Shown here piece after piece: positions 5,610-20,198 of a stretch of DNA of 20,518 nucleotides. The number at the start of each line of letters is the position of its first letter. Position 1 is the first letter of the stretch. Where the stretch lies: the IMG/VR virus record IMGVR_UViG_3300045125_000097, positions 1 through 20,518 of that record, one strand, 5' to 3'. The position numbers were made by a program, and so were the translations under genes. The DNA is from a virus. The notes below the pieces were generated by a model. The model searched no databases. It saw only the letters and a program-made list of their open reading frames with translations, and had not been told where the DNA came from.

Positions 5610-7057
5610 TTAATAAGTAATATCTGGAATTAATTCACACGCACTCAAAGGATTTTTCAACATAATACCTTGCGTAGCTCTGGCAATACATTTCATATCC
5701 ATCAACTGGAGATGCACCCATACCACCATTTTGAGGACCAAAAGGAGTAGTAGAACCTGGTACATACCATTTAATTTCTGAACGTCCTTTAGGAGCTACT
5801 TTCTGAATGTTTGGCTCACCATTAGTTGTTCCAATATTGAAGATAGTCATACGATAGTTTTCAGTATAACCTCCATCAGGATGCTCCATACGGTGCAACA
5901 CTGCATCATCATACTGAGGCATATGAGCTACAGTAATCTTGATACCTTGAGGTCCTAAGAACTGCTTGTATTGTCCTCCTAAAGTTTTGTTTTGACCTGA
6001 ACCTTTAATACGCTCACTATCACCTAGAGGAATTAATACTCCAATTTTATCTTCAATTAATTTGTGGAATTGAATCATTCCTCTTTCACCTGTTAGAATT
6101 AAGAACTCACGCTCATCTTCAGGTAAAATGTTAATTGACAAGTTAGTCATTACTTCCAACAAATAATCTAATGTTAATGTGTTGTAGTAAAACTTATAAG
6201 TCGGAGAGATTTGCTCACGTAAACCTGCACCTTGCTTAATAGGGAATCCATTAGGAGCTTTCTGAGTGAAAGTACCATCTGCATTACTATTTAAAGTAGA
6301 GTACATTAATTGGTTAGCTTTCTCTTTAGCCCATTGGAAGTTGAATTCCATCTCTTGCCATTTAGTCCAAACAGTTACAGATTTTCCTTCTGAACCTGTC
6401 ATCTTAATTAACAAAGGACGGTCTTGCATATTTCCAGGTACTACATACTTCTTAGATAAAGTAGAGAACTGGTTACGCATTTCAAACATTGAGCTGAATT
6501 GAGTCTCACCATATTGGTCATTTAATGTGTTAGTAACAGAGTTGTACAACTTAGCACACTTTACGACCTGCACGAAGCAATTCAGTAGGAGTGAAGTATG
6601 CACCATCTGCACGCATATGACGAACAGTATATACCCAATTTGTACCATCAGGACGACCATCATCTTCAATACGTACACCATGTTCTACATCATCAAATGA
6701 AACATAGTCAGAAGCTACAAAGAACTTCTCAGTTAATGTAATTTCGTAAGTAGTCTTACCTAATCCTGGCGTAGCAGAGTTAGTTGCAGAGTATCCTACG
6801 ATAGTAATAGCACGACGGCTATCACCTTTTAACATCCACTTATATTCACCATCATGATCAAACAATTTAGTAGGGTATTTAGATAAGAATGAATCTAATC
6901 CAATGTATCCCATACGGTTGAATACTTCAGTTACAATATCTGAAGCTAATTGTACGTCATTTTGATAAATAGCGTATAAGTGGTTTTCAGTAGTTAGGCC
7001 AGCCCAAGACTTAGCGTAACTAACCTGCAAGGAATTTAATTTTTGTGTTGCAGCCAT
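5610..7057 (-). CDS. Major capsid protein (crAss-like, HK97-type fold expected)
   Basis: About 480 residues from ATG 7057 (MAATQKLNSLQVSYAKSWAG). It is broken once at about 6558: the first frame ends ..LRAGRKVC and the second continues ..CAKLYNSVTNTLNDQYGET; removing one A restores RKCAKLYNSV. Recognised stretches are ASDYVSFDDVEHGVRIEDDG, EREFLILTGERGMIQFHKLI, KQFLGPQGIKITVAHMPQYD and YEMYCQSYARYYVEKSFEC. These match crAss-like MCPs in order and length as I know them. The first frame stops at TGA 5635. Shifting by one base near 5637 adds ..ELIPDITY with TAA at 5610, the more likely true end. It forms the icosahedral shell and is preceded by a scaffold-like gene and a putative promoter at 8195-8226. 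Confidence 0.9.
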
Positions 7058-7082
7058 TTAACAGTTAATTTTAGTTAGTTTA

Positions 7083-8151
7083 TTAGAATTTATAAGATTT
7101 TTTAGATGCGTCAATAGCTTTTTTAATTACTGACATATCTATTTTATTATTTTTTACAGTGCTATTTTCAGTATTAATAACACTCTTAGTTTTTTGAGCA
7201 GCTTTAGTGTAAGCTTTTCTTTCTACTGCATCTAGTTTACCTTCTAGTTGTAGTACAAATTGAGCTACTGCTAATTGCATTTCTTTAGAAGCCATTCTAT
7301 TTTCAAGTTCTGTACGACCATTTCTATCTCTACGAGTAATAGCCATAAATAACTTTTCTTTATCTTGCTTTTGCAAAGGAACTCCAGGAATAAAACCTTC
7401 TGCTGTTTCTATTTCCCTTTTTAGTTGAGTAATTTGATGCATATATTGTTGTTGAGCCATCATTTGTTTCTGCTCAGCTTCATATGCTAATTGCTGTTGA
7501 TAAGAAGCTTCATATTTCTTAAGTTTTTTAAGAGCTACTTTAGCTTCTTTTTCTAACAACAAACCATCTTTATAACCTTCAAGTTTTTCTTTAATTTCTT
7601 CAGGATCATGGTCTTGTAATGCAAGCCATTGCCCAACTAAACTTTCTTGTAGGTCCTCATTTTCCTTTAGAGTTTCATCATTAATAGAAGCAAATGCTTC
7701 TTGACGACCTCTAGAATTAATTAAATCATTTAATGGAACACCTCTCATGTATCCATCAGCTAGATATTTAATCTCATCTGGCAAAGCATTAAATGCTTCT
7801 TGTTTTACTTTTTCAAAGAACTTATTTCTAAAGTAATCCTCAGAGGATTGAAACTCCTGTTCATCATAATCAAAGATTCCTAAGTCATGTGCCCATTTAG
7901 CAATTTCTCTAAGAGAATCTTCATCATTATTTTCAGAACTTTCAGAACTTTCAGATGCAGGAGCATCATCCATTTCTACTTCTTCATTTGGGTCAAAAGT
8001 ATCAATACTTTCAACCTCTTTTAAGGCAGCTTCTTCAAGCTCATCCTTACTTTCTTGTTCCACCTTTTTGCTCGAAAGTTTCAATACTTTCAACTTCTGG
8101 AATAGTGATTTTGTCTAATACAGACAAATCTAATTTAGTCTCTTGATTCAT
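7083..8151 (-). CDS. Scaffold-like acidic coiled-coil protein upstream of MCP
   Basis: About 355 residues from ATG 8151 (MNQETKLDLSVLDKITIPEV). One frame change near 8065 joins ..SIETFEQK to ..VEQESKDELEEAALKEVESI. The N-terminal 90 residues are strongly acidic with a Ser/Glu run (ASESSESSENNDEDS). The middle and C-terminus are long amphipathic helices with Lys/Glu/Gln periodicity (EKEAKVALKKLKKYEASYQQ, then a Gln/Met-rich AEQKQMMAQQQYMHQ). The C-terminus is basic (KAIDASKKSYKF). Acidic start, coiled-coil body, basic end and position directly before MCP fit a capsid scaffolding protein whose C-terminus contacts MCP. The role is inferred, as no signature motif is visible. A gap of 25 nt separates it from MCP. 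Confidence 0.7.
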
Positions 8152-17132: not shown

Positions 17133-17331
17133 AGTTTGGATAAGGTACGTATTCTCTAATTAAGATACTATCAAAATTTAAGAATGAGTTTCTTTTAAGA
17201 CTTCTTAATAAAGTACTTTTATCTGTAAATCCTTCTAAACAAGTAGCTAATTCTTTAGTACCTTTCTGTAAAGTCCAGTACCACTTATTATCTACTGTAG
17301 AAAAATAATACAGCAGAGTATACTTCTTCAT
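17119..17331 (-). CDS. Small DUF1508/YegP-like protein
   Basis: 70 residues, intact, beginning at ATG 17331 which shares TAATG with the upstream stop. The body reads LYYFSTVDNKWYWTLQKGTK, then ELATCLEGFTDKSTLLRSLK. This follows the DUF1508 (YegP) pattern of F....dg.W.W.L..g...ia...egy..k......i, a beta-beta-beta-alpha unit. The C-terminus (LIREYVPYPNYESY) is Tyr-rich. DUF1508 has no agreed biochemical role. The assignment is by eye and moderate. Stop TGA-free end at TAA 17119. Confidence 0.55.
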   Translation of the reverse strand: MKKYTLLYYFSTVDNKWYWTLQKGTKELATCLEGFTDKSTLLRSLKRNSFLNFDSILIREYVPYPNYESY

Positions 17332-17759
17332 TATTGTAGGTTTTCTAATTTGTAAATTGTACTATAAAATAATTCTTCAATACCATCAATCTGATTTTGT
17401 ACATAACTATCCTGACAGATACCTTTACGAGATTCTTTTACATAGTTTAAACAACCTCTTACATAATTAAGTGGAGTACCTGCTACACTATTATCATAAG
17501 AAACAGAATAACTATAGTCTAAAAGACCCATTTTACCTTGCATAGATTCAGCTAAGCTATCTACTAAATCAGGTAACTCATCATACAAACTTCCTAAAGC
17601 CATATGTGCAGCATACGCACCTGGACCTTTAGCTCTTAAATGTAAAATATGTACCTGTACAGCAGCAGCCATTAAATATGCACAAAATTCACCTTCTGAA
17701 GGATAATTTACTCTACTAGCCATACTAGTAGCTTTCTTTGGAGGAGTTGGAATAGCCAT
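17331..17759 (-). CDS. Helical Dps/DUF5856-like protein
   Basis: 142 residues, intact, ATG 17759 coupled to the GroES-like gene through TAATG. After a short Pro/Lys leader (MAIPTPPKKATSMASRVNYP) the sequence looks like a four-helix bundle: AYLMAAAVQVHILHLRAKGP, AAHMALGSLYDELPDLVDSL, PLNYVRGCLNYVKESRKG, QNQIDGIEELFYSTIYKLEN. The first helix has VHILHLRAKG and the second AHMALGSLYDELPDLVDSLAE, the pattern of Dps/ferritin-like proteins (H near the end of helix A, then D/E in helix B), also of phage DUF5856 proteins. Whether it binds metal is unclear. It could protect DNA or sit in the virion; function is not established. Confidence 0.6.
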   Translation of the reverse strand: MAIPTPPKKATSMASRVNYPSEGEFCAYLMAAAVQVHILHLRAKGPGAYAAHMALGSLYDELPDLVDSLAESMQGKMGLLDYSYSVSYDNSVAGTPLNYVRGCLNYVKESRKGICQDSYVQNQIDGIEELFYSTIYKLENLQ

Positions 17760-18145
17760 TAATTTAATTTTTGTGTTTTAAGTGATTCTTTATATTCTTT
17801 TTCATCCTTGATATAAGCCATATCTACCTTAACCATTACATCAAAGTCACGTATAATAGCCCAATCTCTATCATACATTCTAAATACATCTATCTGTCTA
17901 CCTTGTAAAGCTACCCAATCACCTACTTTTAACTCTTCAATTACAGATCCTGGTGTATGTTGTGTTGGTAAAGCTACTACAGGGTGTGCAATAGACTTAG
18001 TTTCTTCAGCTCCTGTAGGTAAATAAATACCACCTGAAGTTTTTAAGTTACGAACATACTCAATAAGAATATGTCCATTCATAGGAGTGAAATGCTTACG
18101 CATTTTTTCGTGTAGAACGCTTTGTTCTGTTGGTTGATTTTCCAT
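17759..18145 (-). CDS. GroES-like co-chaperonin
   Basis: 128 residues, intact, from ATG 18145 (MENQPTEQSVLHEKMRKHFT). Residues 20-110 match the GroES beta-barrel: FTPMNGHILIEYVRNLKTSG, then GIYLPTGAEETKSIAHPVVA, IEELKVGDWVALQGRQIDVF and WAIIRDFDVMVKVDMAYIKD. GroES hallmarks kept are the P...ILI start, the K(T/S)xGGIxLP loop (GroES mobile loop GGI), the KVGD.V strand and the final ..I.D.DV....V. It probably pairs with the host GroEL to fold phage proteins such as MCP, as T4 gp31 does for its capsid protein. It is larger than GroES (about 97 aa) by N- and C-terminal extensions (C-terminal KEYKESLKTQKLN). Confidence 0.8.
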   Translation of the reverse strand: MENQPTEQSVLHEKMRKHFTPMNGHILIEYVRNLKTSGGIYLPTGAEETKSIAHPVVALPTQHTPGSVIEELKVGDWVALQGRQIDVFRMYDRDWAIIRDFDVMVKVDMAYIKDEKEYKESLKTQKLN

Positions 18146-18664: not shown

Positions 18665-18869
18665 ACTTTTCTTTATTAATATACTTCAACTTCATAGTAG
18701 GAACAACAAACTTACCAAACTTAGGTAACAATATATTATCTCCTTTCTCTTCCCTCATTGTATTAGCAACCATTTCAAACATACTCCTAAAAGCAAGTTC
18801 TATTTTATGCTTTGGTATACCTGTTTCAAATGCTACTTTCTTGTATATTTCATCCAAATCTATCTTCAT
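18615..18869 (-). CDS. IHF/HU-family DNA-bending protein
   Basis: 84 residues, intact, from ATG 18869, which overlaps the TGA of the upstream frame (ATGA). It has the HU/IHF order: two helices (DLDEIYKKVAFETGIPKHKI, LAFRSMFEMVANTMREEK), then the saddle strands GDNILLPKFGKFVVPTMKLK, where the (I/V).L..FG.F.V element is the family signature. The long beta arm is short or missing (the typical RxGRNPxT segment is absent), and it ends KYDKEVSRNSRRLEKPD. IHF-like proteins are a known trait of crAss-like phages. Probable roles are DNA bending in packaging, replication or transcription. Confidence 0.82.
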   Translation of the reverse strand: MKIDLDEIYKKVAFETGIPKHKIELAFRSMFEMVANTMREEKGDNILLPKFGKFVVPTMKLKYINKEKYDKEVSRNSRRLEKPD

Positions 18870-19215
18870 TTCTCAGGTTCAAATGCTATATACAACCTAA
18901 ACTTGTTATCTTTAGGATAATTAGTCAATTTAGGATTTATACCATCTACATCTATAAACCCTCTATCCTTCAAAGACTGTAACAACTTATTAAATAACTT
19001 AGCATTTATCTTCATTTTTTCCTAATAGCTTCATATGTCTTCTCATTAAAAAGAAGCTCATTTAAAACTGCAGGATCATAATGTTTATGAGTATAATGAA
19101 GAGTCATTAAAGATGACAATATATCTACCTCTCCTTTACTAAGGTGTAACACTGGATTTAACCATGTAAGATAAGTAGCAAAGAATCTATCTTTAGGTGT
19201 CTTAATAGTAATCAT
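18866..19215 (-). CDS. Winged-helix-like DNA-binding protein (one gene split by an A-run indel)
   Basis: Two abutting frames: 67 codons from ATG 19215 to TGA 19012, and 49 codons from ATG 19015 to TGA 18866, which is below the usual ORF cut-off. The junction is an A6 run; adding one A fuses ..YEAIRKK to MKINAKLF.. into a single 116-residue protein. Joined, it reads like a winged helix: LSKGEVDILSSLMTLH, then EKTYEAIRKKMKINAKLFNK, LLQSLKDRGFIDVDGINPKL, and a wing KDNKFRLYIAFEPEK. If the stops are real, two coupled small proteins result, joined by ATGA. It is the first gene after the terminator and the putative promoter at 19221-19253, so a regulator role is plausible. Confidence 0.65.
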
Positions 19216-19253: not shown

Positions 19254-19284
19254 AAAATAGCCTAACTCATTAAGAATCAGGCTA
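19251..19284 (-). terminator. Rho-independent terminator (after the lipoprotein gene)
   Basis: The inverted repeat at 19258-19284 forms an 11-bp stem (with two G:U pairs on the minus strand) around a 5-nt loop TTAAT. On the minus strand it is followed by T7. It ends the lipoprotein transcript (stop 19311). On the plus strand the stem is followed by ATTATTTTTT, so it may also work in that direction. Confidence 0.8.
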
Positions 19285-19310
19285 ATTATTTTTTAAGCTA
19301 ATTTTTTACC

Positions 19311-19641
19311 TTAATATGGGGTATGTCCATTATAATACCACCTTCTTAAAGTAATTAAATCACAAGTATCCATACCTGTAGGAGGCATATCATGTAAATA
19401 AATAACTCTTTTAAAGAAAGTCCCATCTTCACAAGCTTCATTTAACTTATCATTACCATATATTCTTGATGACAAGCTTTACAGTTCTTAGAAATGATAG
19501 GTTTAATATCTAGCTACATAACTAATATTCTTCTTACCACAAGGAGCCATGTTCTCTTTCATCATTTTCTTTATTCTTACAACCAAGTCCTAAGAATAAG
19601 AAAAATAACAAGATAGTCAATAATAACAATAGTTTTTTCAT
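19311..19641 (-). CDS. Small lipoprotein with c-type heme (CxxCH) domain, frameshifted
   Basis: About 110 residues from ATG 19641 to TAA 19311, in three or four frames. The start MKKLLLLLTILLFFLFLGLG and the following C give a lipoprotein signal peptide with a Cys at residue 21 (LGLGC, a loose lipobox), then a charged linker (KNKENDERE). The body reads MAPCGKKNISYVA, DIKPIISKNCKACHQ, LNEACEDGTFFKRVIYLHDM and PPTGMDTCDLITLRRWYYNG. DIxPIIxxNCxxCH followed by a later MPP..........L..W...G is the layout of small Bacteroidota c-type cytochrome-like lipoproteins: CKACH (19469-19483) would bind heme covalently and the MPP Met may be the second ligand. Breaks lie near 19555, 19515 and 19463. Expected place: periplasmic face or outer membrane of the host. 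Role in a phage unknown. Not seen as standard in this phage group. Confidence 0.65.
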
Positions 19642-19655
19642 AACATAATTTTAAG

Positions 19656-19688
19656 CTAAAGTAACTATTTAACTCTTTAACTACCAAA
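19656..19688 (-). promoter_or_regulatory. Possible Bacteroidota-type promoter of the lipoprotein gene
   Basis: On the minus strand TTTG (19685-19688) is followed after 21 nt by TACTTTAG (19656-19663), a partial match to TAnnTTTG. It lies 14 nt upstream of the lipoprotein start codon (19641). Weaker than the other candidates because the -7 element ends TTAG. Confidence 0.3.
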
Positions 19689-19699
19689 TAATTACAATT

Positions 19700-19940
19700 A
19701 CGACTAATCTCCATAGCCCTGCAAAGTTGGTGCCATTTTTCACATGATATAAGTAATAATGTATCATCTTAGTGGTTTGGCTCAGCGTCGGTGGAGGATT
19801 CTGCTGCCTCAATATGGCATCAATCTGCCCATAAGCCCCCTATGCTACTTATTCGGTATGGATTCCCTTTACCCATTACCACGGTTTTACGGGTGATACC
19901 TTTGTATGTTACCCTGTGACGGCTTTATTGATCTTTAGTG
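19700..19940. other. GC-rich intergenic island, candidate structured RNA or decayed gene
   Basis: About 240 bases with clearly higher G+C than the rest of the window lie between the minus-strand lipoprotein and the plus-strand cassette. On the plus strand I can draw several helices: GGTA-TGG (from 19855) with CCA-T-TACC, GGGTGA..TAC (19891) with GTA..TTACCC closed on CTTT, ATGGCA (19814) with TGCCCAT, and CTTTAGT/ACTAAAG (19933-19954). Short open frames exist on both strands (plus 19759-19896, 46 codons; minus readings in several frames), but GC-rich DNA lacks stops anyway and codon use differs from the phage genes. It matches no tRNA, tmRNA or RNase P landmark that I know. From 19941 to 20111 I see only AT-rich DNA and no certain gene. 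Confidence 0.4.
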
Positions 19941-20111
19941 CTTATGTACTAAAGCTATAAATATTATAATTATGATATTTATTTGTTGCGTTTTGTATTC
20001 AACATTTTCATGTGTATGCTGTTGATCTTCAAAAAGTTCATAGAATCTTACTGTTCATTTCAAAGTACAAAAAGCGTGCAAGTAAAAATTTTTATTACAT
20101 TTTTCAGTTTT

Positions 20112-20198
20112 ATGAGTGACGATCGACCGCATTTTTATTATAAGCTAAAGAATTACAGTCCACTACAAATTTTACTTTTGAAGGAGTATCGAAAATGA
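20112..20198 (+). CDS. Small plus-strand protein, unknown (start uncertain)
   Basis: 28 codons from ATG 20112 (MSDDRPHFYYKLKNYSPLQI, then LLLKEYRK) to TGA 20196-20198, which overlaps the next ATG. The frame is open back to 19983, so a longer hydrophobic N-terminus (IFMCMLLIFKKFIESY) is possible with a TTG or inner ATG start. Support for reality: orientation with the next gene, the ATGA coupling, and tandem terminators downstream. The minus strand is also open over part of this stretch, so confidence is low. No family recognised. Confidence 0.35.
   Translation: MSDDRPHFYYKLKNYSPLQILLLKEYRK

Follow-up and report, generated by a model that had tools for sequence, protein, structure and literature searches.

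A probable c-type cytochrome lipoprotein in three phage lineages, related to small lipoproteins of Bacteroidota

Does a small gene that is broken over three reading frames in a virus record code for a real c-type cytochrome, and what could a phage use it for? The window analysed here is a virus record of 20,518 bases, and the gene is located on its minus strand with the ATG at 19641 and the stop codon at 19313-19311 (Table 1). Read from its start, it runs from MKKLLLLLTILLFFLFLGLGC in one frame to MAPCGKKNISYVA in a second, DIKPIISKNCKACHQ in the third and KLNEACEDGTFFKRVIYLHDMPPTGMDTCDLITLRRWYYNGHTPY in the second again. After the lipoprotein signal Cys the joined protein reads PCGKKNISYVA-DIKPIISKNCKACHQ, followed by KLNEACEDGTFFKRVIYLHDMPPTGMDTCDLITLRRWYYNGHTPY. 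The original prediction combined a signal peptide ending in Cys, CKACH, MPP and a closing segment over three frames into one haem-binding lipoprotein; these pieces (the signal with its Cys, DIKPIISKNCKACHQ, DMPPTG and a W..NGH tail) are all seen between 19641 and 19311, and they are intact in relatives of the gene.

Table 1. Features of the cytochrome locus in the window.
Feature	Positions	Strand	Remarks
Cytochrome-c-like lipoprotein gene, split over three frames in the window record	19311..19641	-	intact homologs
Lipoprotein (type II) signal peptide MKKLLLLLTILLFFLFLGLG-C	19579..19641	-	lipid-attachment Cys at 19581-19579
CKACH, haem-c attachment motif and proximal His	19469..19483	-	CxxCH in all phage homologs
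MPP with presumed distal axial Met	19380..19388	-	Met invariant in phage and host sets
Intrinsic terminator TAGCCTGATTCTTAATGAGTTAGGCTA + TTTTTTT, closes cargo unit	19258..19284	-	conserved in L002, L003 and L004
Conserved leader/putative promoter block, with TATTTGGTA at 19682-19690	19642..19725	-	conserved in L002 and L003; function inferred
Site of the relatives' second gene, absent in the window	19285..19310	-	relatives: 403-414 aa choice-of-anchor-V/FN3 protein with Cx4CH
Downstream neighbour gene, weakly similar to TrmB/winged-helix proteins, packaging operon start, conserved edge of cargo unit	18869..19215	-	

By sequence comparison, chance is ruled out as the origin of this layout, since homologs with a single open frame are present in other viral contigs and the nearest of them share the position and the neighbour genes. 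The gene was found in eight other viral contigs; seven copies are complete and open (L002, L003, L004, L006, L007, L008 and L009) and one is cut by the contig end (L010). All eight have the lipobox Cys, CxxCH, MPP and one extra Cys pair. Across the seven complete proteins, whose identity to the first goes down to 45%, the lipobox Cys, C34, CxxCH, M85PP, C93 and W101 are invariant, as are the CG preceding the domain, Y..D.KPII, KRV, DTCD and W.YNGH. The extra pair corresponds to C34 and C93 of L002, which could form a disulfide. CxxCH and MPP, which had been required to be joinable, share a single frame in all intact relatives. The gene had been proposed for a search at the same locus in related crAss-like genomes, and in the nearest relatives it is there, beside the same neighbours. 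With plain tblastn, intact relatives matched the window gene at 1e-33 and 6e-29; a profile search of the window gave 1.1e-37 through the broken frames, a value that is partly circular because the joined window sequence is among the five rows of the profile. Pairwise dN/dS of the phage genes is mostly about 0.1-0.35 (pairs with unsaturated dS) and 0.60 for the close pair G001-G003; judged from these ratios, the phage relatives are under purifying selection. Extending the viral scans with both the phage and the host alignment yielded nothing beyond the same eight contigs, and phage GenBank records showed no match to the window DNA, the cytochrome or the partner protein described below.

The family almost certainly belongs to the cytochromes c. 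The CxxCH haem attachment motif is present in all seven complete phage proteins and in the window, and the distal axial ligand would, by alignment, be the Met of MPP, located C-terminal to CxxCH and invariant in the phage and the host sets. The homology to known cytochromes c is a two-step one, from the phage to the host profile and from there to cytochrome c6. Phage and host profiles were aligned by hhalign with 99.7% probability (E 2e-26), part of this resemblance being due to selection, since the host alignment was gathered with phage-seeded patterns. The host profile matched cytochrome c6 in the PDB (E 1.3e-4), and its match list consists nearly entirely of c-type cytochromes, whereas the phage profile alone matched PDB cytochromes weakly (E 0.07). 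This agrees with the proposed type, a small c-type cytochrome lipoprotein of the Bacteroidota kind. The HMM search suggested for the protein thus succeeded through the host family, but no phage or host cytochrome member reached a curated Pfam or NCBIfam threshold. Single-protein scans of the cytochrome against Pfam, PHROG and NCBIfam gave sub-threshold matches only, some of them weak ones to cytochrome families. For PF13442 (Cytochrome_CBB3) the joined window protein scored 14.1 bits against a gathering cutoff of 27, and host relatives also stayed below it (best 24.0 bits); because of these scores the cytochrome is not filed under this family. In structure prediction the model is all-helical and confident (pLDDT 92-98 from residue 41 on), but Foldseek against the PDB returned no significant fold match (best E 7.2). 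Among solved structures the closest one is the monohaem cytochrome PccH of Geobacter (VIA Z 7.5, rmsd 1.9 over 71 residues), with a Z that can be noise for a small helical protein. The phage proteins share CxxCH, a C-terminal Met and a small all-helical domain with cytochrome c6 and PccH; both are distant, and the phage proteins differ from them as lipoproteins with an extra Cys pair. Haem would very likely be attached to the phage cytochrome in vivo.

Relatives of the cytochrome are encoded in 93 of 296 sampled Bacteroidota genomes and also among L011-L042, and this host family shares the haem features of the phage family. Each of 7 phage and 16 host proteins has the lipid-attachment Cys at the end of a hydrophobic segment. 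Small cytochrome-c-like lipoproteins of Bacteroidota (L011-L014, L015, L069) resemble the phage versions in the lipobox Cys, Y..DIKPII..C..CH, RV....MPP and the W...G tail. They are 115-122 aa long, compared to 103-109 aa in phages, and their tail is GAPNN where the phages have NGH; L011-L014 have Cx4CH, whereas the phage versions are strictly Cx2CH and make up a separate clade. In a tree of 38 rows with midpoint root this single phage clade (99/98) is located on a long stem amid Bacteroidota proteins. Because it is nested there, the tree suggests one capture from Bacteroidota and subsequent passage between phages, in line with the acquisition of a host gene that had been postulated. A DNA pattern search of 395 Bacteroidota genomes for the phage tail signature had no match, thus a close host donor did not come to light. 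Host relatives of this layout immediately precede genes for a di-haem, peroxidase-type oxidoreductase (DHOR, E 4e-69) and a Rieske protein, or are encoded beside a DUF5777 beta-barrel and another cytochrome. At several host loci (L069, L070, L076 and others) the relatives cluster with DHOR, Rieske, DUF5777 barrel and PSCyt1 proteins. Such loci are perhaps a Bacteroidota envelope electron-transfer locus.

The cytochrome gene is present in three phage lineages, one crAss-like including the window, one deep crAss-like and one unrelated. Lineage A comprises the window, G001, G002 and G003 and is crAss-like by portal, capsid and terminase. In the window these three proteins match PHROGs 6547, 11589 and 6681, and tblastn with the window portal and capsid found about 130-150 mostly crAss-like records (best rows 33-37% identity), so the genome was correctly called crAss-like from the start. 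Lineage B is represented by G004 (69.6 kb), which is deep crAss-like by its portal (phrog_6547, E 4e-25) and terminase (phrog_6681, E 2e-9). Lineage C consists of G005-G008, whose terminase (phrog_2) and portal (phrog_7376) are unrelated. In each of the three lineages the gene shares its strand with the structural genes: upstream of the terminase in A and B, and after the structural genes in C, where it overlaps a 77-aa two-transmembrane holin-like gene. Searching 50,697 phage records by tblastn with the G005 portal and the G004 terminase gave no match. G004 (L051-L054) and G005 (L055, L056) represent two phage lineages without close GenBank relatives.

The reading we lean towards, with some reservation, is that the gene codes for a monohaem c-type cytochrome lipoprotein, that its family was captured from Bacteroidota on one occasion and later moved between phages, and that the protein serves as a late envelope electron carrier. 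Going by the gene position, the protein would be made late in infection; it would then be exported by Sec and lipidated, obtain its haem from the host cytochrome c maturation system and stay anchored in the envelope (outer membrane), where it would carry electrons. It is probably an outer-membrane lipoprotein. Most likely it would plug into the periplasmic electron-transfer chain of the host, and since host relatives adjoin DHOR and Rieske proteins or the DUF5777 barrel, the same host chain is the likely partner. Electrons, peroxide removal or proton-motive force might in this way be kept flowing until lysis. The presence of such a gene suggests that these phages supply the host envelope with an electron-carrying component late in infection; that this component supports electron transfer at that stage is a tentative proposal, to which we give somewhat less than an even chance.

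Some phage lipoproteins block or mask receptors. The protein might accordingly be a superinfection-exclusion lipoprotein, its cytochrome fold being merely a stable scaffold that blocks or masks an outer-membrane receptor, and the lipoprotein signal, the small size and the location in its own cargo unit would fit such a function. Acidic residues near +4 to +8 after the lipid-attachment Cys also resemble the published Bacteroidota surface-export signal C-X-K-(D/E)2 (PMC5080379), without an exact match. However, a blocker needs no haem ligands, and these are all invariant in the phage copies while other positions diverge. The location on the structural-gene strand in three lineages, together with the holin-like neighbour in one, favours a late envelope role over early superinfection exclusion, which we consider unlikely.

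The window copy of the cytochrome gene is broken. Compared to G001, the other window genes have 30 frame changes in 17.98 kb (about 1.7 per kb), portal, terminase and capsid genes included. Because frames are broken throughout, the window appears to be an error-rich sequence, and most of its frame changes are likely sequence errors. For the cytochrome gene the number is three within 0.33 kb, slightly more than expected (Poisson p about 0.02), and this excess as well as the partner gene missing from the window could indicate that the window copy is decayed and functionless, or a sequence-error artefact without active protein. Since even terminase, portal and capsid frames are interrupted, the window pieces still keep the haem motif, MPP and tail, and the intact relatives are under purifying selection, this reading is rather improbable. 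Slightly less probable again is a lysis-related part, which would help to set the moment of lysis or the energisation of the membrane, or be a lysis lipoprotein of the outer membrane. In G005-G007 the cytochrome gene ends inside the start of the 77-aa gene, a homolog of which is encoded near a lysozyme-type endolysin in G004, and the joined window protein has one very weak spanin PHROG match (E 0.21), but in the window lineage and in G004 the cytochrome gene is far from the endolysin. That CxxCH is a thiol-redox motif or a site for zinc or some other metal, instead of carrying haem, is hardly credible, since weak single-protein zinc-finger matches (E about 0.08) are opposed by the invariant His and distal Met, the cytochrome c6 match via host relatives, the signal peptide and the haem enzymes adjoining the host relatives.

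The cytochrome gene is part of a separable cargo unit. In G001, G002 and G003 it is followed after 7-16 bases by a second gene and then by the terminator; in the window a nearly identical copy of this terminator is located directly after the cytochrome gene and the second gene is cleanly absent. The terminator is conserved after the unit in four genomes. Separability follows from the second gene being present or absent with the terminator kept, and from its different location in G004. The independent unit with its own terminator that had been predicted is thus supported, while the promoter predicted with it has indirect support from a conserved AT-rich block upstream, sigma-70-like matches upstream of the window cytochrome gene being at chance level. 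This block, with TATTTGGTA, is located about 40-60 bases upstream of the ATG, and the DNA farther upstream is not conserved; as a repeated late promoter within the window, TATTTGGTA was at chance level. A long non-coding leader is found upstream of the unit (window 19650-20160; L002 1420-2137; L003 about 6391-7107). Compared to shuffled sequences it folds better in L002 (z -3.4, 20 shuffles) but not in the window (z -0.35), and Rfam reported nothing above gathering for it; a structured RNA or a promoter region is possible.

Besides CxxCH, CxxxxCH is also known as a haem c motif, though a less common one. The partner protein encoded by the second gene contains a choice-of-anchor-V domain (NF041895, 82.3 bits, cutoff 42) with a CATSGCH motif, a putative haem-type Cx4CH, and then FN3 repeats. 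It has the domain in common with NF041895 proteins, to which it adds the FN3 repeats and, in lineage A, the location next to the cytochrome gene. Full-length copies are also present in G004, G009, G010 and G011, and a short copy without the motif in G005. In G004 the partner gene is located in the structural region, away from the cytochrome gene, between genes for a 434-aa phrog_1645 virion protein and a small basic protein, homologs of which adjoin each other in G001. Partner proteins (L002 2475-3686, L052 3782-4963, L057, L058, L059) share 66-93% identity with the L002 copy although the phages are otherwise very unlike each other, which points to a recent exchange of the gene between phage lineages. 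The two adjacent genes might even constitute a phage haem module, a lipoprotein cytochrome and a secreted Cx4CH/FN3 protein, that rewires electron flow in the outer envelope and has spread across phages since late infection depends on it; we regard this as speculative and doubtful. A structure model of the partner Cx4CH domain was discarded due to low confidence. The C-terminal end of the partner resembles a secretion sorting tail, and no model matched it.

Phage electron-transfer genes are known chiefly from cyanophages and from phages of sulfur oxidisers. The latter carry such genes, and phage SoxD auxiliary genes are a precedent for a phage gene from a c-type cytochrome family (PMC8190135). 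SoxD belongs to sulfur oxidation, and two viral SoxD proteins were reported to be without cytochrome c motifs (PMC8190135), whereas the motif is kept in every copy of the present family, in crAss-like and in other phages. A literature search for cytochrome c in crAss-like phages, with most subscription journals outside its coverage, found no report. Thus, a host-derived electron-transfer gene is a known kind of phage cargo, and for a c-type cytochrome in crAss-like phages no report was found. A selected c-type cytochrome lipoprotein in these phages would, if true, extend electron-transfer cargo to Bacteroidota viruses and to the envelope. Since the same clade is present in three lineages and the unit is separable, the role can be tested directly via one small gene. 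The packaging operon of the window also encodes a GroES-like co-chaperonin (17759-18145, phrog_3188) and a starvation-inducible-regulator-like protein (17331-17759, phrog_858).
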